Positions 378 to 13,784 of a DNA stretch of 20,524 nt are shown piece after piece (positions within the stretch are counted from its first letter, which is position 1; each line of letters opens with the position of its first letter). The stretch comes from a virus. Position numbers and translations under genes: made by a program. Location of the stretch: positions 1 to 20,524 of the IMG/VR virus record IMGVR_UViG_3300036879_000049; one strand, given 5' to 3'. The notes beneath the pieces were generated by a model. The model saw only the letters and a program-made list of their open reading frames with translations. It was not told the DNA's origin and did not search any database.

Positions 378-1097
378 ATGTGTTTTATGTTAATGCTGGC
401 TGCATTTCGCGACCAGGCCAAGGATTCTAATGGGAAGTATCGACTAACAGGAATTGAGACCGCTGTTTACGCCAGGATGGCCTTATATGCCAGCGAGGAC
501 GGAACTAATATTTATCCTGGCCTTAACACTCTAGTTGCTGAACTTAAGTTTTCTAAGAGTGCTATTCAACGAACTATAAAAGCTTTATTAGATAAAAAAC
601 GGATAGTTTTAATAAAGCAGGGCAACAGTCAAACGCATAAAGCTAACGAATATAAAATTAACCTGTCGTTACTTCCAAGGCACGTAGCTATTCAAATGCC
701 TACTTATACTGACGCTGTGGATAACTATGTGGATAACATGCCAATTTCTATGTATAACCCTGTGGATAATTCTTTACCTATAGTCCCAGAGAACATAGGA
801 GCTGTACCCAGAGAGACCAGGGGGGCTGTAGTCACAGCGCCCACCCATAATCATATATCACAATCATTAAATAAAAATCATATGATTAAAGAGCAACAAA
901 TTGATATAAAAAATGATTTGTTGATGATGAAGGTAAATAAGAAATCGGTAGATAGGTGGGTTAACGAGTTTGGGTTTACTGCACTAACTGAAATAATTGT
1001 AGCTATGAGAGAACACGAAAAGAAAAAAGGGATCCAAATAAAAAACAAGGGGGCTTATCTTAGGAAAATCTTAGAACAACAAAAAAGCAGACATTAA
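378..1097 (+). CDS. Winged-helix protein, probable phage/plasmid replication initiator
   Basis: This 239-aa protein has an N-terminal winged-helix region (about residues 20-100). It reads as a two-helix DNA-binding unit (YPGLNTLVAELKFSKSAIQR) followed by a wing (KKRIVLIKQGN). The pattern matches the HTH_36-like domains at the N-terminus of phage O-type and plasmid initiation proteins. The middle (about 105-170) is low in structure. The C-terminus (about 180-239) is basic and helical, ending in KGAYLRKILEQQKS, like the tails of some initiator proteins. The start is supported by GGGAG eight bases upstream. It lies behind its own promoter, next to but convergent with the recombination operon, which fits an early replication gene. 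A transcriptional regulator is the main alternative. The helix-turn-helix is fairly sure; the replication role is inferred. Confidence 0.65.
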   Translation: MCFMLMLAAFRDQAKDSNGKYRLTGIETAVYARMALYASEDGTNIYPGLNTLVAELKFSKSAIQRTIKALLDKKRIVLIKQGNSQTHKANEYKINLSLLPRHVAIQMPTYTDAVDNYVDNMPISMYNPVDNSLPIVPENIGAVPRETRGAVVTAPTHNHISQSLNKNHMIKEQQIDIKNDLLMMKVNKKSVDRWVNEFGFTALTEIIVAMREHEKKKGIQIKNKGAYLRKILEQQKSRH

Positions 1098-5323: not shown

Positions 5324-5637
5324 ACTATAGTGTGCGCTCGCATAGCTTTGAGCGATTATTAGAGCTAATTAACGGTAACTTTGAAGGGCGTGTACTTATA
5401 ACCGTAACAGAATTGCCAGATTATATTAAACAATTACCAACTAAGCAGCAGCAGGTAATAAACTTTTTTTATCGAGACGGCTTAACTTTTAGAGAAATAG
5501 CCACTACGTTTGGAGTGAGCTGGTCGAGGCCGTCTCAAATTAGAGATAACGCTATAAAGAGTTTACGGAAAAAAGCTTCGTATAAATGGAATGATAAAAT
5601 GATGGACGAAAAAAACAATAAGTCATACGATGACTGA
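5320..5637 (+). CDS. Sigma-70 region-4-like helix-turn-helix protein
   Basis: This 105-aa protein has a region-4-type DNA-binding segment at about 39-85. LPTKQQQVINFFYRDGLTFR is followed by the turn EIATTFGVS and a recognition helix SRPSQIRDNAIKSLRKK. This order (L-P-x-x-x-x-x-V-I then L-T-x-x-E-I-A) is that of sigma-70 region 4 and of phage late regulators. There is no region 2, so it cannot be a complete sigma factor. It overlaps the gene before by 4 nt and TerL by 8 nt. It may act as a late-gene activator or RNA-polymerase appropriator; that is inferred from the fold and position. Confidence 0.65.
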   Translation: MNYSVRSHSFERLLELINGNFEGRVLITVTELPDYIKQLPTKQQQVINFFYRDGLTFREIATTFGVSWSRPSQIRDNAIKSLRKKASYKWNDKMMDEKNNKSYDD

Positions 5638-7189
5638 TGACGAGATTAAGACACGCCAACTTTTAAAAGACAACTTTATACATTATGCTTCGCGTTGTCT
5701 TAAAATCCGCACTAAGCAAGGTGAGATTGCGCCGTTTGTCTTAAATAAAGCGCAGCAGTATATACATGAGCGATTAGAAGATCAAAGAAGACAAACAGGT
5801 AGAGTTAGAGCACTGATCTTGAAAGGAAGACAACAAGGATGCAGTACGTATGTTGGCGGCAGATACTACCATAAAACAACGCATAATAAGGGGACACAAT
5901 GCTTTATCTTAACTCATGCATTAGATGCTACCAATAATCTATTTAAGATGGCGCAGCGGTTTTATCAGAATACCCCAAACTTAGTTCAGCCTGATATTAG
6001 CACCAACAACTCTAAAGAGCTTATCTTTGGGCGGTTAGATAGCGGATATAAACTAGGAACAGCCGAAAATAAAGCGGTTGGGCGCTCCAGTACTATTCAA
6101 TTATTCCATGGCTCTGAGATTGCCTTTTGGGCAAATGCTCACGAGCATACTAAAGGTATACTGCAAGCCGTGCCAGACGCAACAGGAACAGAGATCATAT
6201 TGGAATCAACCGCTAACGGGGTTGGTAATTACTTTCATCAGATGTGGCAAAAAGCAGAGGGCGGCATGTCTGATTTTATAGCTATCTTTGTTCCATGGTT
6301 CTGGCAAGACGAATATAAAAGACAAACGTCGCCGGACTTTAAACCTAATCATATAGAGTTACGCTTAATTGAAGCTTATCGGTTAACCTTAGAGCAGATA
6401 GCCTGGCGGCGATTTAAAATTACTGATTTATCAGTTAACGGTCAAGACGGGGAGAAAAGCTTTTGCCAGGAATATCCATGCAATCCAAATGAGGCTTTCC
6501 AACTTAAAGGCGAGAATTCATTTATCGATTCATCAATAGTAATGCGAGCGAGAAAAGAAACGGCAGAGAAATACGGCCCTTTAATTATGGGGGTTGACCC
6601 TGCCCGATTTGGTGATGATCGCACTTCAATAATCTTTAGGCAAGGCCGTGTGGCATTTGGATTACAAAGCTATACCAAGAAAGACACAATGGAGGTAACT
6701 GGCATTGTTCATTCATTGATTGAACAGCATCGGCCTTTAAAGGTGTTTGTTGATGTCGGCGGATTGGGAGCTGGTGTTGTCGACAGGCTTAATGAATTAG
6801 GCCACAAGGAGGCTGTCGTTGCGGTTAACGCTGGTTCAAAAAGCTTAGACGACCAGAAGTATTCAAATAAGCGTGCTGAGATGTGGGGTAAGTGCGCCAA
6901 TTGGCTAGAGGATATCCCAGTACAAATACCAGATGTAGACAGCTTACATGCAGATTTATGCGGTATACGCTATAGTTTTGATTCCAACTCTAGATTGGTT
7001 ATGGAGAAAAAGGAAGATATGAAAAAGAGGGGAATCAGGTCGTCAGACGAAGCGGACGCGCTTTGTTTAACTTTTGCTTATCCTGTTACGGCATTTAGGG
7101 AACAGCCAAACCCAAGCGCACCAATACTTAAATCATTGGCGCAAGATTTTAATACTAAACTGACAGCCATTAGGAGGTCTAGAAAATAA
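5630..7189 (+). CDS. terL: Terminase large subunit (ATPase and headful nuclease)
   Basis: This 519-aa motor protein pumps DNA into the prohead and cuts it when full. The ATPase domain has a Walker-A-like KGRQQGCST (65-73) and a Walker B with catalytic glutamate, TEIILEST (187-194, Glu192). The RNase H-like nuclease domain shows its three acidic sites: GVDPARFGDD (Asp323), KVFVDVGG (Asp375) and SSDEADAL (Asp476). Length is normal for the P22/Sf6 group. The ATG at 5630 has only a weak ribosome site and overlaps the previous stop by 8 nt, so translation probably depends on coupling. In P22 the portal gene follows at once; here about 1.3 kb of accessory DNA separates them. Confidence 0.93.
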   Translation: MTDDEIKTRQLLKDNFIHYASRCLKIRTKQGEIAPFVLNKAQQYIHERLEDQRRQTGRVRALILKGRQQGCSTYVGGRYYHKTTHNKGTQCFILTHALDATNNLFKMAQRFYQNTPNLVQPDISTNNSKELIFGRLDSGYKLGTAENKAVGRSSTIQLFHGSEIAFWANAHEHTKGILQAVPDATGTEIILESTANGVGNYFHQMWQKAEGGMSDFIAIFVPWFWQDEYKRQTSPDFKPNHIELRLIEAYRLTLEQIAWRRFKITDLSVNGQDGEKSFCQEYPCNPNEAFQLKGENSFIDSSIVMRARKETAEKYGPLIMGVDPARFGDDRTSIIFRQGRVAFGLQSYTKKDTMEVTGIVHSLIEQHRPLKVFVDVGGLGAGVVDRLNELGHKEAVVAVNAGSKSLDDQKYSNKRAEMWGKCANWLEDIPVQIPDVDSLHADLCGIRYSFDSNSRLVMEKKEDMKKRGIRSSDEADALCLTFAYPVTAFREQPNPSAPILKSLAQDFNTKLTAIRRSRK

Positions 7190-7192
7190 TTA

Positions 7193-7320
7193 AGGCCAAA
7201 AAGCTACCGTTAGTGTTTTTGCAGAACTACTAACGGCTAATAAAGAACATCAAATAAATTATACTGTAATCATAACTTTAATCAAACTTTGAATCTATTC
7301 TTTTTTCTAGGCTATTTATA
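7193..7320 (-). pseudogene. Remnant of a Bdr/DUF1640-like gene (C-terminal half)
   Basis: Read leftward, 7281-7318 encodes the same coil as the intact gene at 8143-8379 (SLEKRIDSKFD), identical over 38 bp. It then decays through stops and a hydrophobic stretch to a second matching patch coding VAFW at about 7195-7206, the exact C-terminus of the intact copy (shared CCAAAAAGCTACC, 7197-7209 and 8146-8158). The N-terminal half is missing beyond 7320. Within it lies a hairpin, CCGTTAGT (7207-7214) with ACTAACGG (7229-7236), with TTTTT following on the minus strand, which may act as a weak leftward terminator. Confidence 0.6.
7281..7318 (+). repeat. Perfect 38-bp direct repeat, copy 1 (copy 2 at 8215-8252)
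   Basis: The 38 bases at 7281-7318 and 8215-8252 are identical and in the same orientation, 934 bp apart. They encode the coiled-coil part of two paralogous leftward genes, one dead and one intact. Homologous recombination between them would delete the iteron array and both broken genes. Confidence 0.9.
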
Positions 7321-7343
7321 ACTCATTAGAGTCAAATGTTGAT

Positions 7344-7589
7344 GTGTTCAAAAAGCTGGGCTCCTACGTGGAGGAGAAAGAAATATATGATTACCATATA
7401 GGCAGCTTATTACGTGTGCTAATATCAAAAGGACATGATGAACATAATAGTATTACCCCTTATAAAACTCAAAATAAACTAATTGATGATATTGCAAATA
7501 AATTTCCTGAAAAAGAAAATTTGTCAGTAGAAAATCTGAACAGGAAGTTTTCTAGTGCAAATAAATTTTTTAAAAATAACAATTTATAG
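7344..7589 (+). CDS. 5'-truncated ORF of unknown function upstream of iterons
   Basis: The reading frame is open from 7311 to its stop at 7587-7589. The first plausible start is GTG at 7344, giving 81 aa, with no convincing ribosome site. The open frame continues upstream through NSLESNVDVF into the remnant of the coiled-coil gene, where a stop ends it at 7308-7310. The sequence (KLGSYVEEKEIYDYHIGSLL, later KFPEKENLSVENLNRKFSSA) reads like the C-terminal part of a larger protein cut off at about 7320. I recognise no family. It directly precedes the iteron array, so a link to replication or partition is possible but unproven. Probably not functional as it stands. Confidence 0.4.
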   Translation: MFKKLGSYVEEKEIYDYHIGSLLRVLISKGHDEHNSITPYKTQNKLIDDIANKFPEKENLSVENLNRKFSSANKFFKNNNL

Positions 7590-7746
7590 TACGAAATTAA
7601 TTAAATAATTGTACGAAAATAGCACAACTTTAACGAAAATTGTTATCCATAATACGAAAACGATAAAGAATTGTACGAAAACCTTAATTATTGTACGAAA
7701 AGCATCGTTTAATTGTACGAAATTGGTTATCCATTTTTGTACAATG
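7589..7746 (+). repeat. Iteron-like array with two DnaA-box-like sites
   Basis: Seven same-direction ACGAAA units, most of them GTACGAAA, start at 7589, 7611, 7631, 7652, 7673, 7693 and 7715, so 20-22 bp apart (two helical turns). A weaker GTACAA follows at 7739. Units three and four are degenerate. Two TTATCCAT sites, near the DnaA-box consensus, start at 7643 and 7727, each 12 bp after an iteron start and 84 bp from each other. The spacing regularity and AT-rich context are those of plasmid or phage replication origins. A regulator-binding array or centromere is the alternative. No intact adjacent Rep gene is visible. Confidence 0.75.
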
Positions 7747-7920
7747 AAAGAATATAAAACATTATCTAAGCTGAGCCTGTACTAAGAAAAACAGCATCCA
7801 AGGAATCAAGATGTAATTGATTGGTTAAGTAATAAAGAATTTGACCCAACTACAGCAAAGCGCATGGCTAGCTTTATTAGGCCAGAATGGGCAAAAAAAG
7901 GATCTCCCAAAAAACAATAG
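7744..7920 (+). pseudogene. Broken small ORF after the iterons (in-frame stop)
   Basis: An ATG directly after the last iteron opens a 59-codon frame interrupted by TAA at codon 14 (7783-7785). The frame then continues as EKQHPRNQDVIDWLSNKEFD and ends in a basic tail with AKRMASFIRPEWAKK. A single base change would restore a 58-residue protein. There is no start codon after the stop, so I treat it as a pseudogene. No family is recognised. Confidence 0.4.
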
Positions 7921-7947: not shown

Positions 7948-8141
7948 ATGCGTTATGGCTTTATGAACCCTATTATAAAGAACAATAGGGTTCGGTATCT
8001 TATTTAAAAGTCTCTAAAGGTGTTTTCCCTAAACCTATAAAACTTTCAGCCAGATCGGTTGGCTGGCTTGAGAGCGAGGTAGACAACTGGATAGATCAAC
8101 GGATTGAAGCCACTAGAGGCAACCATAGGGAAAAAATATGA
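7948..8141 (+). pseudogene. Degraded AlpA-like excisionase/regulator gene
   Basis: Two frames carry pieces of an AlpA-family protein. From 7948 the frame gives MNPIIKNNRVRYLI and then a stop. From about 7997 another frame gives VSKGVFPKPIKLSARSVGWL and ESEVDNWIDQRI, which is the AlpA recognition-helix/wing signature. The expected helix-turn-helix stretch (usually like LSRSTIYRL) is missing and the frame shifts at the join, so an internal deletion has killed the gene. A perfect 10-bp hairpin (GAACCCTATT 7965-7974, AATAGGGTTC 7984-7993) lies in its 5' part. AlpA proteins usually control excision or activation of integrated elements. Confidence 0.6.
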
Positions 8142-8142
8142 A

Positions 8143-8379
8143 TCACCAAAAAGCTACCTTCAGAAGCAGCACAATTATTGCTATGCAGGCTTTTTCTAGC
8201 ATACCGAACTTAGCATCAAACTTTGAATCTATTCTTTTTTCTAGGCTATTTAAATCTTCTTTAGTGGCTGCGCCGTCAAATGAGGCATTCAAGGCCTTTA
8301 CAGCCGTAATTGCTTGGCTTTCTGTGTAGCCCCCAGATAAATATTCTTTGTATACTTGTAATGTATCTATGTGTGCCAT
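8143..8379 (-). CDS. Coiled-coil membrane protein, Bdr/DUF1640-like, copy 3
   Basis: This 78-aa leftward gene lies alone against the surrounding rightward late genes. It begins MAHIDTLQVYKEYLSGGYTE, nearly the same as the gene at 3516, then has the coil ATKEDLNSLEKRIDSKFD and a C-terminal membrane helix (ACIAIIVLLLKVAFW). An ATG at 8391 is possible, but 8379 has GGGGA six bases upstream, like the GGGGG sites of its paralogues. Its coil region shares the 38-bp repeat with the dead copy at 7193-7320. Function unknown; a mobile or recombination-prone family is suggested by its scattered copies. Confidence 0.65.
   Translation of the reverse strand: MAHIDTLQVYKEYLSGGYTESQAITAVKALNASFDGAATKEDLNSLEKRIDSKFDAKFGMLEKACIAIIVLLLKVAFW
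8215..8252 (+). repeat. Perfect 38-bp direct repeat, copy 2 (copy 1 at 7281-7318)
   Basis: Second copy of the 38-bp repeat, inside the intact coiled-coil gene. See 7281-7318. Confidence 0.9.
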
Positions 8380-8484
8380 TCTTATCCCCATTTATAGTTA
8401 TTTCCTTAGATTTTACTATACTAAAAACTTAGATATAAGGAATGTATCTATCTAAGTAGTTCAACCACCAGAAAAGGATTTCAA

Positions 8485-10590
8485 ATGGTAGCTAAAAAGC
8501 ACACGGATAAGTTAAACGAAATCAAGAAAAATATTGAGCACGCGCACGAATATTTTATAAAGAATGTTAATCGCTTTAATGACTTTATGAAGTTTGTCTT
8601 CCAGACTTCGTTATCGTCCGATGACATCACTAAATTAGATGTGCTACAAAAACCTGCAATAGAATTTAACATCTTAGAAGCGATGATTTCAAGGCTAAGA
8701 GGCGAGTTCGCGAAACAAGAACCATCAATAGTGGCAAGAGCTGCCGACGGTGTGCGAATTGAAGAGCTAACCCCAGAATTTTTACAAACATTAGAAATAA
8801 TAGAGGCGCATTTAAGAGAGATTTTCTTTGACGCCTCCAACGATGCACTAGAGTATAACATTTATTCAGACTTATTAGCTGGTGGTTATAGTGTTGTCCA
8901 CGTTTATACAGGCTACATTAACGAGCTATCTTTTGAGCAAAATATTAAAGTAGAGCGAGTATTCGATCCAACTTTAACTGGCTTCGATCCGTTAGCCAGA
9001 GAATCACATAAGGGCGATGGTAATTACTGCTTTCAGTTAATCCCTAAATCAAAAGAAGATTTTGAAGAAGAATTCGGTAAAGGCTCGGCCGACAATATGA
9101 AGTTTGAAAGATCGAGCCATGTAGGCGATTTTAATTGGAGCTATTTAAATCAAGATCAAGAAATCATACTGGTTGCCGATTACTACTGCAAGAAAAAGAA
9201 GAAAGAGAAGATCGTAAAACTTTCTAACGGCCATACTATTGTTAAAAAACATTATGAGGAATTCCTTAAACTATGGGGTAATCAAGGGTTTATTGAACAA
9301 GCCCCCATTCTTATAGATGAAAGAGAAACCATTATCGAAACAATTGATCGCTATATGGTTTGTGAAGATAAAGTACTGTCTCACGAAGAAACATCCTATA
9401 AGTTCTTCCCGTTAGTATTTATTGATGGCAATAGTGTGGTAATTAGAGAAAACGAAGATGATGCATCAATGCAGATGACCAGGCCTTTTGTTTATCATGC
9501 TAAAGGTGTGCAACAACTTAAAAACTTCTCAGGACAGACCGTTGCTGCCGAAATTGAAAACATGGTGCAACATAAATTTATGGTAGCAGTTGAGTCTATA
9601 CCAGAGGATTATGCGGACGCTTATAAAAACGTACAGCAAGCATCTACGTTGGTTTATAACGCATTTTATAAAGATAATCCAGAGCAACCATTACCGCCCC
9701 CAAGAGAAGTTCAACGAACCCCTACTCCCGACATTGTTAATATGACTTTTATGGGGACCGATCAGGTTACCCAAACTATATTAGGTACGTATGATTCCAT
9801 ATTAGGAACTAACGATAAGCAAATATCAGGGGTCGCCATACAGCAAGGAGCAATGCAATCTAATGCTGCGGCCATTCCTTATTTACAGGGCTATATTAGA
9901 GGCTTAAATAGGGTTGCCCAAATAGTTGTTGACTTAATTCCTAAGTATTATGTAACGCCTAGAAGCTTACCAGTAAAGGAGCCTGACGGTAAGCGCTCTT
10001 ACCAAATTATTAATCACCCAAATAATCCTGAAAGCGTAGACTTTAGTTACAACCCAAATAGTTTACAGATTAAGGTTGAAGCAGGGGTTAGTAGCGCAGT
10101 ACAAAAACAAGTAGCGCTTGATCAAATAATTAGAATGATGCAGTCCAGTCAATTGTTTGCTGAGTTTATTAATACTATGGGGCTAGAAACAATTCTAGAT
10201 AACATGGACATTAGAGGTATTGAGGGGCTTAAGGCTCAAGCCGTTCAGTTTATGAAGCAATTAGAAGAACAAAAACAACAACAAGCACAGCAAGGCAATC
10301 CTGAAGAAACCGCAATGCGTGAGCAAACCGAGGCCATTAAACAAATTGAGATGGCTAAGATTCAGCAACAACAACAAAAACAAGAAGGAGAGCTAGCTAT
10401 CCAAGCTGCTAAAGTTGCTAATGAGAAGACCTTAACTGATGTTAAGTTTATGCAGATTATGGCGCAAATTAATCAGAACCAAATCAAACTTGGAATTGAA
10501 CAAGAAAAGGTTGATTCCGAAAATGCTAGAACTGCGGTGGAGCATGTAATTAAAAGTGCAGAAATAGCCCACAAACATAGGGAAGAATAG
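8485..10590 (+). CDS. P22-like portal protein
   Basis: This 701-aa protein forms the twelve-subunit ring at one head vertex through which DNA enters and leaves. Its length is close to P22 gp1 (725 aa). The core contains ILEAMISRLRGEFAKQ, the typical portal opening, and the FMGTDQVTQTILGTYDSILG region. The C-terminal 120 or so residues (from about 580) are a Q/K/E-rich continuous helix, matching the long alpha-helical barrel of the P22 portal. AAAAGGA lies seven bases before the ATG. A short inverted repeat (TTCCTTA 8402-8408, TAAGGAA 8436-8442) precedes the gene. It ends one base into the methyltransferase gene (TAGTG). Confidence 0.9.
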   Translation: MVAKKHTDKLNEIKKNIEHAHEYFIKNVNRFNDFMKFVFQTSLSSDDITKLDVLQKPAIEFNILEAMISRLRGEFAKQEPSIVARAADGVRIEELTPEFLQTLEIIEAHLREIFFDASNDALEYNIYSDLLAGGYSVVHVYTGYINELSFEQNIKVERVFDPTLTGFDPLARESHKGDGNYCFQLIPKSKEDFEEEFGKGSADNMKFERSSHVGDFNWSYLNQDQEIILVADYYCKKKKKEKIVKLSNGHTIVKKHYEEFLKLWGNQGFIEQAPILIDERETIIETIDRYMVCEDKVLSHEETSYKFFPLVFIDGNSVVIRENEDDASMQMTRPFVYHAKGVQQLKNFSGQTVAAEIENMVQHKFMVAVESIPEDYADAYKNVQQASTLVYNAFYKDNPEQPLPPPREVQRTPTPDIVNMTFMGTDQVTQTILGTYDSILGTNDKQISGVAIQQGAMQSNAAAIPYLQGYIRGLNRVAQIVVDLIPKYYVTPRSLPVKEPDGKRSYQIINHPNNPESVDFSYNPNSLQIKVEAGVSSAVQKQVALDQIIRMMQSSQLFAEFINTMGLETILDNMDIRGIEGLKAQAVQFMKQLEEQKQQQAQQGNPEETAMREQTEAIKQIEMAKIQQQQQKQEGELAIQAAKVANEKTLTDVKFMQIMAQINQNQIKLGIEQEKVDSENARTAVEHVIKSAEIAHKHREE

Positions 10591-11642
10591 TGTTAGACAA
10601 GGGATATGTCTGCGTTTTGTCGGATTGTAAAGATGCGATAAGGGATTTGATTGCAAAGGGTCAACAGGTAGATGCAATTGTTACTGACCCGCCGTATGAA
10701 CTTGGGTTTATGAACAAAGGCTGGGATAAGTCTGGCATTGCTAATGATGTCGAGTTATGGAAACTATGCCTAGAGGTATTAAAGCCAGGTGGCCATTTAT
10801 TAGCGTTCGGCGGTAGCCGCACTTATCATAGGATGGCCTGTGCAATTGAAGATGCCGGGTTTGAAATTCGGGATCAAATCATGTGGGTTTATGGAAGCGG
10901 TTTTCCTAAAAACTTAAATGTTAGCAAGGCTATCGATAAGATGGCTGGTGCTGAAAGAGAGGTTATAGGCGTTTTAAAAAGTAGCCAAGATATAAAGGGG
11001 AACGCTGGGTTTGGCAGTGAAAAAAGCAAGCTTAAAGAAAGGATTGATATTAACATAACCACGCCGCCAACATACGATGCCAAAAAGTGGGATGGCTGGG
11101 GTTCTCAATTAAAACCAGCACACGAGCCAATAATTGTGGCAAGAAAACCACTAAGCGAAAAGAATATAGCAAGTAACGTGCTAAAACATGGTACTGGCGG
11201 GATTAATATCGATGGGTGTCGGGTTGGAACAGAAACTAGAACGTATCAAAGTATGAAAACTTTAGGGGTTATGCACGATGATAATTGGGTGTCAAGGCAA
11301 TTTAAATCGACCGTGTCAGGCCGTTTTCCAGCAAACTTTATCCACGATGGTAGCGAAGAGGTAGAAGCAAGTTTAGGTTCGCCGTCCCGCTTTTTCTATT
11401 GTGCTAAAGCGTCGTCCGCAGAAAGAGGCCAACATAACAATCATCCCACTGTAAAACCAATTAAATTAATGCAATACTTATGTAGACTAGTTACACCGCC
11501 TAATGGCGTTATACTCGATCCGTTTATGGGCAGCGGTTCAACTGGAATTGCTGCTAAGCTAGAGGGATTTAGGTTCATAGGAATTGAAAAGCAACAGGAA
11601 TATATGGATATTGCGATTAAAAGGATAGCGAATGACAACTAA
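10590..11642 (+). CDS. DNA adenine/cytosine-N4 methyltransferase (beta-type order)
   Basis: This 350-aa enzyme would methylate an exocyclic amino group in DNA with S-adenosylmethionine. The catalytic motif TDPPY (32-36) lies near the N-terminus. The cofactor motif LDPFMGSGSTG (309-319) is near the C-terminus, giving the motif order of beta-class enzymes, with HPTVKP (285-290) ahead of it. GTG at 10590 is the start, touching the portal stop (TAGTG), with GGGAAG just upstream. No restriction enzyme gene is in the window, so it may protect phage DNA from host restriction or act in regulation. It is placed between portal and scaffold, an unusual spot. The target sequence cannot be read. Confidence 0.85.
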   Translation: MLDKGYVCVLSDCKDAIRDLIAKGQQVDAIVTDPPYELGFMNKGWDKSGIANDVELWKLCLEVLKPGGHLLAFGGSRTYHRMACAIEDAGFEIRDQIMWVYGSGFPKNLNVSKAIDKMAGAEREVIGVLKSSQDIKGNAGFGSEKSKLKERIDINITTPPTYDAKKWDGWGSQLKPAHEPIIVARKPLSEKNIASNVLKHGTGGINIDGCRVGTETRTYQSMKTLGVMHDDNWVSRQFKSTVSGRFPANFIHDGSEEVEASLGSPSRFFYCAKASSAERGQHNNHPTVKPIKLMQYLCRLVTPPNGVILDPFMGSGSTGIAAKLEGFRFIGIEKQQEYMDIAIKRIANDN

Positions 11643-12675: not shown

Positions 12676-12876
12676 ATGAATAAAGAACATTATACGGAAG
12701 CAGATTTTATAACGTACGAGGTTTTAATTATTTTAGAAGCGAAAATTGAAAAAGCTAGAGAAATTGCCATTAACTTATTAAATGCTGGCGTAAGCCCAGA
12801 GATAATAAGTAAATGCTTGGGCTTGTCTATAGAAGAAATAGAGGAATTACCAAGATATGATGGGCGGAGAGATTAA
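12676..12876 (+). CDS. Stand-alone Rpn/transposase_31 C-terminal-like protein
   Basis: This 66-aa protein matches the tail of Rpn-type (PD-(D/E)XK transposase-like) proteins. A helix with AKIEKAREIAINLLNAG precedes VSPEIISKCLGLSIEEIEEL, the repeat motif seen in that family's tails. No nuclease domain is present, so it is either a small regulator like the short isoforms of Rpn genes or a gene fragment. The ATG at 12676 has a TATATA-type stretch just upstream but a poor ribosome site. The ending (EELPRYDGRRD) recurs in changed form at 13791-13826. The stop lies 4 nt into the RelE-like gene read convergently. Confidence 0.55.
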   Translation: MNKEHYTEADFITYEVLIILEAKIEKAREIAINLLNAGVSPEIISKCLGLSIEEIEELPRYDGRRD

Positions 12877-13139
12877 CTATATACGCTTTTTCTATGTCCA
12901 ACATTAACCACAATTACTACTAACGTACTGTCTTTTATCTCACACACAACTCTATATACCCCAGTTCTATAGCTCCATAATCCTTTGTGGGTTCCACTTA
13001 GGGGCTTACCTAGTCTGCGAGGGTTACTAAGTCTCCTAATTTTATTCGCTAAAAAGTCCCTTATTTGTTTTTGTGCTGGCTTCCCTAATTTGTCCAATTG
13101 TTTCACGGCCTTTTTGTCTAATTCAATCATCCAAACCAT
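12873..13139 (-). CDS. RelE/ParE-type toxin
   Basis: This 88-aa protein would be an mRNA-cleaving (RelE) toxin of a type II toxin-antitoxin pair. The fold signature is clear: MIELDKKAVKQLDKLGKPAQ, then RRLSNPRRLGKPLSGT, GLWSYRTGVYRVVCEI and a last strand VVIVVNVGHRKSVY, with the RHKxxY-like end typical of RelE/RelG types. I start at the ATG at 13139, since the nearest family members begin M-x-W-x-I-E-L. An in-frame ATG further on, at 13130, is also possible. It overlaps the antitoxin by 17 nt and ends 4 nt into the + strand Rpn-like gene. Arg and Tyr residues of the active centre appear present, so it is probably intact. Confidence 0.82.
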   Translation of the reverse strand: MVWMIELDKKAVKQLDKLGKPAQKQIRDFLANKIRRLSNPRRLGKPLSGTHKGLWSYRTGVYRVVCEIKDSTLVVIVVNVGHRKSVYS

Positions 13140-13335
13140 TCTTTTTGCTCCATTCATCCAAAGATATAGTAGGGTTCTTTTGTTCTAGCACGCTAATTGC
13201 CAATAAATAATCTTCCCTATCTTCTATAAATTCTTGGATGGCTTTTCTAGCATAATAGCTTTTAGTGCGACCTGTTTTTTCGGACAGTCTAGTTAAGCGT
13301 TGTTCTAAATCTTCTGAAATTCTAATAGCAAGCAT
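13123..13335 (-). CDS. RelB/RHH-type antitoxin
   Basis: This 70-aa protein has an N-terminal ribbon-helix-helix: strand MLAIRISEDL, helix EQRLTRLSEKTGRTKSYY and a second helix ARKAIQEFIED. An acidic toxin-binding tail follows (AISVLEQKNPTISLDEWS). The start at 13335 is favoured over a longer frame to 13425, since family members begin M-L-A-I-R; a GGGG sits about ten bases upstream. It precedes and overlaps the toxin, the usual antitoxin-first order. It should repress the promoter at 13348-13376. Confidence 0.82.
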   Translation of the reverse strand: MLAIRISEDLEQRLTRLSEKTGRTKSYYARKAIQEFIEDREDYLLAISVLEQKNPTISLDEWSKKNGLDD

Positions 13336-13347
13336 AATGTATCGCCC

Positions 13348-13376
13348 CGTATAACATGTATACCAAAGTATACCAA
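13348..13376 (-). promoter_or_regulatory. Toxin-antitoxin promoter with repeated GTATAC operator
   Basis: Read leftward, TTGGTA (13371-13376) is 17 bp from TATACG (13348-13353). The element TTTGGTATAC is repeated twice in the -35 and spacer (13358-13377), each with a GTATAC palindrome. This is a natural autoregulation site for the RHH antitoxin. The promoter boxes are only moderately like consensus. Confidence 0.5.
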
Positions 13377-13473
13377 AGCTATAGCAAAAGATATACCTCT
13401 TTTTGCACATAAAAAATTGGATCAAAAAAGAGGAGTTTTTGGTCGTTTTTTCGCCGTATACTTTTAAAGCAAA

Positions 13474-13728
13474 TTATGCTAGGCATTTTTTAGATTTTTT
13501 CTTGCGTGTATTTTTTTCTATTTCTTTAATTGATTTCATCAAAGCCAAAGCATTATAGGGGCTGCTCATAAGATATGCTGTTTCTTTTACGCTATTCCAT
13601 TCTTGTTCGGATACCAATACGGCATTGCTTTTTTTGCCTTTAATATAAATCGGTTTATGCCCATCAGATATTTCATTAACCAAACTATATAAATTTTGTC
13701 TTGCAGCACTTACGCTTAAAATTGTCAT
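13474..13728 (-). CDS. Phd/YefM-family antitoxin, apparently orphan
   Basis: This 84-aa protein has the Phd/YefM N-terminal fold: MTILSVSAARQNLYSLVNEI, then HKPIYIKGKKSNAVLVSEQE and W. A helical tail (NALALMKSIKEIEKN) would bind a toxin. The start at 13728 has GGAGG six bases upstream; a longer start at 13755 would run into the promoter. No toxin-size frame follows before the RelB gene, so the usual partner (YoeB or Doc type) is absent. A 9-bp inverted repeat (13396-13404 with 13425-13433) lies downstream and may be a weak terminator. It could counter an outside toxin or be a remnant. Confidence 0.78.
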   Translation of the reverse strand: MTILSVSAARQNLYSLVNEISDGHKPIYIKGKKSNAVLVSEQEWNSVKETAYLMSSPYNALALMKSIKEIEKNTRKKKSKKCLA

Positions 13729-13754
13729 ATAAAACCTCCACAATAGCAATCCCA

Positions 13755-13784
13755 ACTATACTACAATCCGTACGGGTTTTACAA
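13755..13784 (-). promoter_or_regulatory. Phd/YefM promoter with near-perfect palindrome
   Basis: Leftward TTGTAA (13779-13784) is 18 bp from TATAGT (13755-13760, 5 of 6). The spacer holds a 14-bp palindrome with one imperfect pair (13765-13778, core CCGTACGG). Placement between -35 and -10 is that of an autoregulatory operator bound by the antitoxin. Confidence 0.55.

Follow-up and report, generated by a model that had tools for sequence, protein, structure and literature searches.

What is an array of plasmid-type direct repeats doing between the terminase and portal genes of a P22-like phage? The window analysed here, a complete IMG/VR record of 20,524 bp to which no host genome is attached (IMG/VR records being fragments), encodes terS, terL (5630..7189, plus strand; phrog_2, E 3e-31; 53% identity to Pseudoalteromonas phage H6/1), a P22-like portal (8485..10590, plus strand; PF16510, E 1e-75) and coat among its structural genes. 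An N6/N4 DNA methylase gene (10590-11642) lies directly 3' of the portal gene. An earlier note, made from the letters of the window, had taken the repeats in the terL-portal gap for the replication origin of a plasmid or phage-plasmid, and we asked whether they are the origin of this phage or belong to something else.

The array (7589..7746, plus strand, 26.6% GC) consists of seven (TT)GTACGAAA-type units spaced by 20-22 bp and two TTATCCAT sites. The ACGAAA cores start at 7591, 7613, 7633, 7654, 7675, 7695 and 7717 on the plus strand (spacings of 22, 20, 21, 21, 20 and 22 bp in this order), so that the units span 7591-7722. Five units read GTACGAAA, one AATACGAAA and one TTAACGAAA, and about 10 of the 21 bp are conserved per unit; many iterons are conserved across the whole unit. 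The TTATCCAT sites, at 7643-7650 and 7727-7734, are separated by 84 bp and are imperfect DnaA boxes (7/9 consensus matches). Direct comparison of the composite blocks at 7633-7650 and 7717-7734 gave identity at 16 of 18 bases, as the earlier note had described. All units are oriented toward a short open reading frame starting at 7744, and an inverted copy that had escaped that note, TTTTTGTACAAT at 7734-7745 (ATTGTACAAAAA on the minus strand), overlaps its ATG. This regularity far exceeds what shuffled sequences produce: the longest chain of ACGAAA at 19-23 bp has seven members versus at most two in 5000 dinucleotide shuffles of 7319-7785, and across the entire window no 6-mer formed a chain of more than three in 200 shuffles, against seven observed. 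Two TTATCCA occurrences within 158 bp were reached in none of 5000 local shuffles, while the number of TTATCCAT sites over the whole window (three, 1.4 expected) is not unusual. The seven units and two sites claimed from the sequence were thus found again at the same positions, confirming an array of tandem same-strand direct repeats at near-helical spacing that is beyond chance.

Comparison with related phages delimits the DNA that carries the array. Relative to the allele of L004, L008 and L019, an exact comparison defines a 466-bp insert (7319..7784, plus strand) in place of 52 different bases; L007 has the same 52 bases as far as it reaches, and the portal genes of these array-minus phages are 100% identical to that of the window. 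The insert recurs in nine other contigs, four of them partial, with 100% identity where readable; these carriers may come from neighbouring sites, and their identity is uninformative as to whether the insert is a relic or functional. In relatives with 94-96% portal identity (e.g. L011, L012, L015 and L018) the gap is occupied by unrelated small genes alone, and in L020, L021, L028 and L030 terL and portal are nearly adjacent. The adjacency that the earlier note had given for P22-type phages is found in these more distant relatives. From this comparison of alleles the terL-portal gap emerges as a variable locus and the array as dispensable.

The genes around the insert are likewise truncated or variable. 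Small CCDC90-like genes are the typical occupants of the gap in this group of phages; the window has a remnant of a DUF1640/CCDC90-like gene (7187..7318, minus strand), the right 38 bp of which are repeated at 8215-8252, and a small gene with a weak CCDC90-like match (8143..8391, minus strand). On the other side of the insert lie a headless fragment (EKQHPRNQ...KKGSPKKQ; 7786..7920, plus strand), which is longer in L004, and a truncated AlpA gene (8013..8138, plus strand), of which the L004 copy is intact (66 aa; Pfam Phage_AlpA, E 8e-19). Because L004 keeps both an intact alpA and the longer next frame, the simplest course is that an allele of the L004 kind gave rise to that of the window. 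We rejected an AlpA/satellite-island origin for the whole insert, as AlpA and the KKQ fragment came in with a separate, earlier insertion that array-minus phages also have. The closest AlpA to that of the L004 allele is encoded on a Legionella adelaidensis plasmid (L172), in an island with an integrase and a RepB-type primase.

Other features of this region vary as well. Three contigs break inside the array (L159, L161 and L009) and one (L104) breaks 7 bases past the right junction of the insert, a pattern that repeats or co-occurring alleles would be expected to cause in assembly. Sister phages carry an in-frame intein at about residue 71 of terL (L005:1322-3679 and L012:5926-8283; Pfam Intein_splicing, E 9e-9 in L005 and below the cut-off in L012) that the window terL lacks. 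Intein and array segregate independently, both being present in L005 and L006, the intein only in L004 and the array only in L003. A different insertion, apparently intein- or HNH-like by inspection, lies near the end of terL (about residue 499) in L023:950-1960.

Within the insert, the array is flanked by two incomplete genes. To its left is a 3' gene fragment, orf81 (7344..7589, plus strand), whose frame is open back to the left junction without an ATG, and to its right is a 13-codon stub (MKEYKTLSKLSLY; 7744..7785, plus strand) whose stop codon TAA is formed across the right junction. No homologs of orf81 were found in plasmids, phages or 369 gammaproteobacterial genomes, a RecN-like match was judged to be chance, and its structural model is a three-helix fold of low confidence (mean pLDDT 65). 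The insert was thus probably cut from another element, taking with it the 3' part of one gene, the intergenic control region after it and the first codons of a second gene. Since no cognate initiator gene adjoins the array and only the 13-codon stub follows it, we do not class the array as a working origin.

The phage has two better origin candidates, which are kept with and without the array. The first lies in a gene (378..1097, plus strand) that the earlier note had called replication-initiator-like and that indeed encodes an O/DnaD-like replication protein (HTH_36 above the cut-off; PHROG replication initiation families). Within this gene are three perfect DnaA boxes (TTATCCACA; 716..769, minus strand), the only ones in the window (0.16 expected), and they are conserved in all eight aligned genes, array-plus and array-minus alike. 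No link between the 378-1097 protein and the array was found. The second candidate is a locus outside the window, about 2.1 kb left of its position 1 (L243:3248-5656, minus strand), where parA (PF13614, AAA_31, E 1e-29) is paired with a rep-like HTH gene that carries 11-bp iterons within its coding sequence; two perfect DnaA boxes lie upstream of parA and recur in L018 and L037. The iteron of this rep, GTGGAGTCAAA, is unlike the unit of the window array. In the near-identical phage L245 the repeat block in the rep-like gene is longer and the reading frame is interrupted (assembly error or repeat expansion). The plasmid-type look claimed for the array thus stands, but its assignment as the origin of this element is not supported, as the array is absent from sisters with an identical portal and from close relatives; from these alleles it is probably not a conserved origin of the phage.

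The same loci speak to the lifestyle of the element. A single 19.5-kb contig carries the array, portal, terL, the O-like gene, parA and the rep-like gene, and genes for a ParE toxin, an RHH protein and a Phd/YefM antitoxin (12873-13755, minus strand) sit among the head genes of the window, in agreement with the toxin-antitoxin genes noted before. No integrase was found in nine related records, five of them of 39-40 kb, with positive controls (the array-bearing record G372 is incomplete). Similarly, tyrosine integrase, Rep3 initiator, S24 repressor and serine recombinase were all missing from slightly varying sets of nine related records, while control genomes scored positive; a search for a lysogeny repressor yielded, besides the lack of S24, only sub-threshold HTH_3 matches. 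Two related records of about 39-40 kb have terminal direct repeats of 123 and 127 bp. Judged by its genes, the whole element is probably a phage-plasmid, an earlier proposal that now draws its support mainly from the parA-rep locus outside the window and from the lack of an integrase.

Homologs of the phage pair of parA and HTH gene, with identities reaching about 37% in the HTH/C-terminal part, are found on plasmids of Piscirickettsia salmonis, Legionella and Bdellovibrio; such pairs also occur in other gammaproteobacterial genomes that were sampled. All eight rep-like genes in a shuffle test contain a repeated short motif (0/300 shuffles); the short rep-like gene of Legionella anisa (L279) has two copies only. 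Six of seven plasmid modules (Piscirickettsia and Legionella) also have repeats directly upstream of parA, in numbers reached by none of 300 shuffles, although these six are not independent, the two Legionella modules having similar ParA. In most modules the upstream motif is the same as that inside rep; in the Bdellovibrio plasmid and the phages the repeats are inside rep only. That the HTH gene encodes the replication initiator is suggested by its iterons, by its occurrence on plasmids and by weak matches to PHROG families of replication initiation; among solved structures, its product matched only winged-helix regulators, with marginal scores. A parA gene followed by an HTH gene with its own 11-bp iterons looks like an undescribed replicon type, and a small literature search returned no description or name for it. 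As a study of the P. salmonis LF-89 plasmids reportedly detected neither iterons nor an origin and, in two of the plasmids, no replication protein (PMC6963756), the module is a directly testable candidate for these plasmids. Following the array thus led to an apparent replicon type that plasmids of Legionella, Piscirickettsia and Bdellovibrio have in common with a P22-like phage.

The type of iteron in these modules follows the HTH domain. G375 (L032) and G374 (L018) differ in their iterons (AACCTAGTACA versus GTACTCAAACA) and share just 34% identity in the HTH domain, although their ParA proteins are 99.7% identical. Conversely, G375 and G378 (L037) share the same iterons and HTH domains of 96% identity, while their ParA proteins are about 33% identical. 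The rep-like genes compared among close relatives were L236, L239, L232, L238 and L243, and in this set the iteron type tracks the HTH domain and not ParA. Such co-variation is the expected pattern if the HTH domain reads the iterons and both swap together, and this one triple suggests that iterons and HTH domain are exchanged as a cassette. Apparent co-swapping between near-identical phages would let the origin of plasmid incompatibility types be tested.

On the basis that the flanking genes of the insert are cut, we favor, at about even chances, the reading that the array is the captured control region of a foreign rep/par operon, that is an origin and/or a partition site. The captured fragment would comprise the 3' end of the preceding gene, the repeat-bearing control region and the first 13 codons of the operon, and it would have entered the variable terL-portal gap of a P22-like phage-plasmid with replication modules of its own by illegitimate recombination. 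In the donor, an initiator or centromere-binding protein may have bound the repeats two helical turns apart, assisted by DnaA at the TTATCCAT sites; by binding the inverted copy over the start codon it may also have repressed its own operon. The headless orf81, the stop codon made by the junction in the stub, the presence/absence polymorphism and the orientation of the units toward the stub all argue for capture. As the phage is plasmid-like, recombination with plasmids is plausible; plasmids are more frequent partners of phage-plasmids in gene exchange than phages are (PMC10879196). None of the genes seen in the phage carries the repeats of the array, so we regard the fragment as a probable relic, and the array itself is probably debris.

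Searches for the donor returned none: both the array and orf81 occur in IMG/VR only in this phage and are absent from plasmid and phage collections. The motif search in relatives proposed by the earlier note recovered the array in the nine other contigs and neither in L004-type sisters nor in these collections. Some repeats upstream of parA on plasmids have a core akin to that of the window array (GTACACAAA versus GTACGAAAA), a likeness noticed post hoc, yet the spacing of 20-22 bp differs from the 11, 24-25 and 33-36 bp common in plasmid arrays. As the spacing differs and the stub of 13 residues is too short to name the gene, a parA-type donor is kept, by analogy, as a possibility within the foreign rep/par reading. 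By inspection, 47 matches to a triple-unit pattern in GTDB genome contigs looked like unrelated tandem repeats, coding repeats or IS ends, and other TACGAAA arrays in viral contigs were mostly coding repeats. L192 and L222 have a similar core at 19-20 bp with no evident rep or parA nearby, and a match to an E. coli plasmid (H36, E 0.1) was isolated, in a vector-like record, and dismissed as chance. No literature was found on TTGTACGAAA together with an iteron.

Four other explanations were weighed. We consider it unlikely that the array is a cluster of operator sites, bound by a cooperative repressor at the promoter of the downstream gene and having no role as an origin. The array does end exactly at a start codon covered by the inverted copy, and spacing by two turns fits cooperative repressors, but seven sites over 158 bp are long for an operator and no sigma-70-like promoter was found on the plus strand near the array. 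In its present form, moreover, the array can hardly be the mere operator of the gene at 7744, an alternative raised at the outset, since this gene is a truncated stub. It is improbable that the array serves the phage-plasmid as an active second origin or partition site with a protein of its own: despite the plasmid-like phage and the combination of iterons and DnaA-box-like sites in an AT-rich stretch, the array is absent in sisters that share the O-like gene and in relatives that share parA, and the rep of the phage carries a different iteron. Quite improbable is a decoy or incompatibility element, whose extra iterons would draw the initiator away from a competing plasmid or satellite. Ectopic origin copies are known to block lambda replication (PMC4488673), an origin-directed nuclease of ICP1 that mimics RepA specificity targets satellite iterons (PMC8263062), and the insert is unchanged in nine other contigs, but no competitor with the iterons of the array was found. 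We regard as very improbable the extended version in which phage-plasmids swap the iteron and HTH cassette to change incompatibility group, with the terL-portal array as a foreign decoy against the source replicon. Finally, an IS21-type transposon end with multiple short terminal repeats bound by a transposase is disfavored as highly improbable: some TGTACGAAA arrays with a spacing of 22 bp in contigs of Actinomycetes and Acidobacteria adjoin IstA/IstB-like genes by inspection, but these arrays consist of 3-4 units and conserve nearly the whole 22 bp of each, and neither istA/istB, a transposase ORF nor a matching second end was seen among the ORFs listed near the insert.

For the favored reading of a captured rep/par control region, iteron plasmid origins are among the closest known systems: they share with the array AT-richness, DnaA-box-like sites, direct repeats spaced by about two turns of the helix and an inverted copy where the next gene starts, whereas here no cognate rep remains, half of the unit is conserved and the DnaA-like sites are imperfect. 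The parA-HTH module of Piscirickettsia, Legionella and Bdellovibrio is homologous to the parA-rep of the phage, and the repeats before parA in six modules resemble the array before the stub, although spacing and core differ. The O-type origins of lambda and P22 find a parallel in the gene at 378-1097, which is O/DnaD-like and contains origin-like boxes, but these are DnaA boxes instead of O iterons and are unrelated to the array. The element, a probable phage-plasmid, resembles P1- and N15-like phage-plasmids in combining phage structural genes with parA, rep and toxin-antitoxin genes and in the lack of a detectable tyrosine integrase in its relatives; it differs in its podovirus-type head genes and another rep family. 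Lastly, while PLE is a satellite under nuclease selection and the module considered here is the phage's own rep, the swapping of RepA and iterons in PLE (PMC8263062) is akin to the pattern in the phage rep, in that origin repeats and DNA-binding domain change together and the rest stays.
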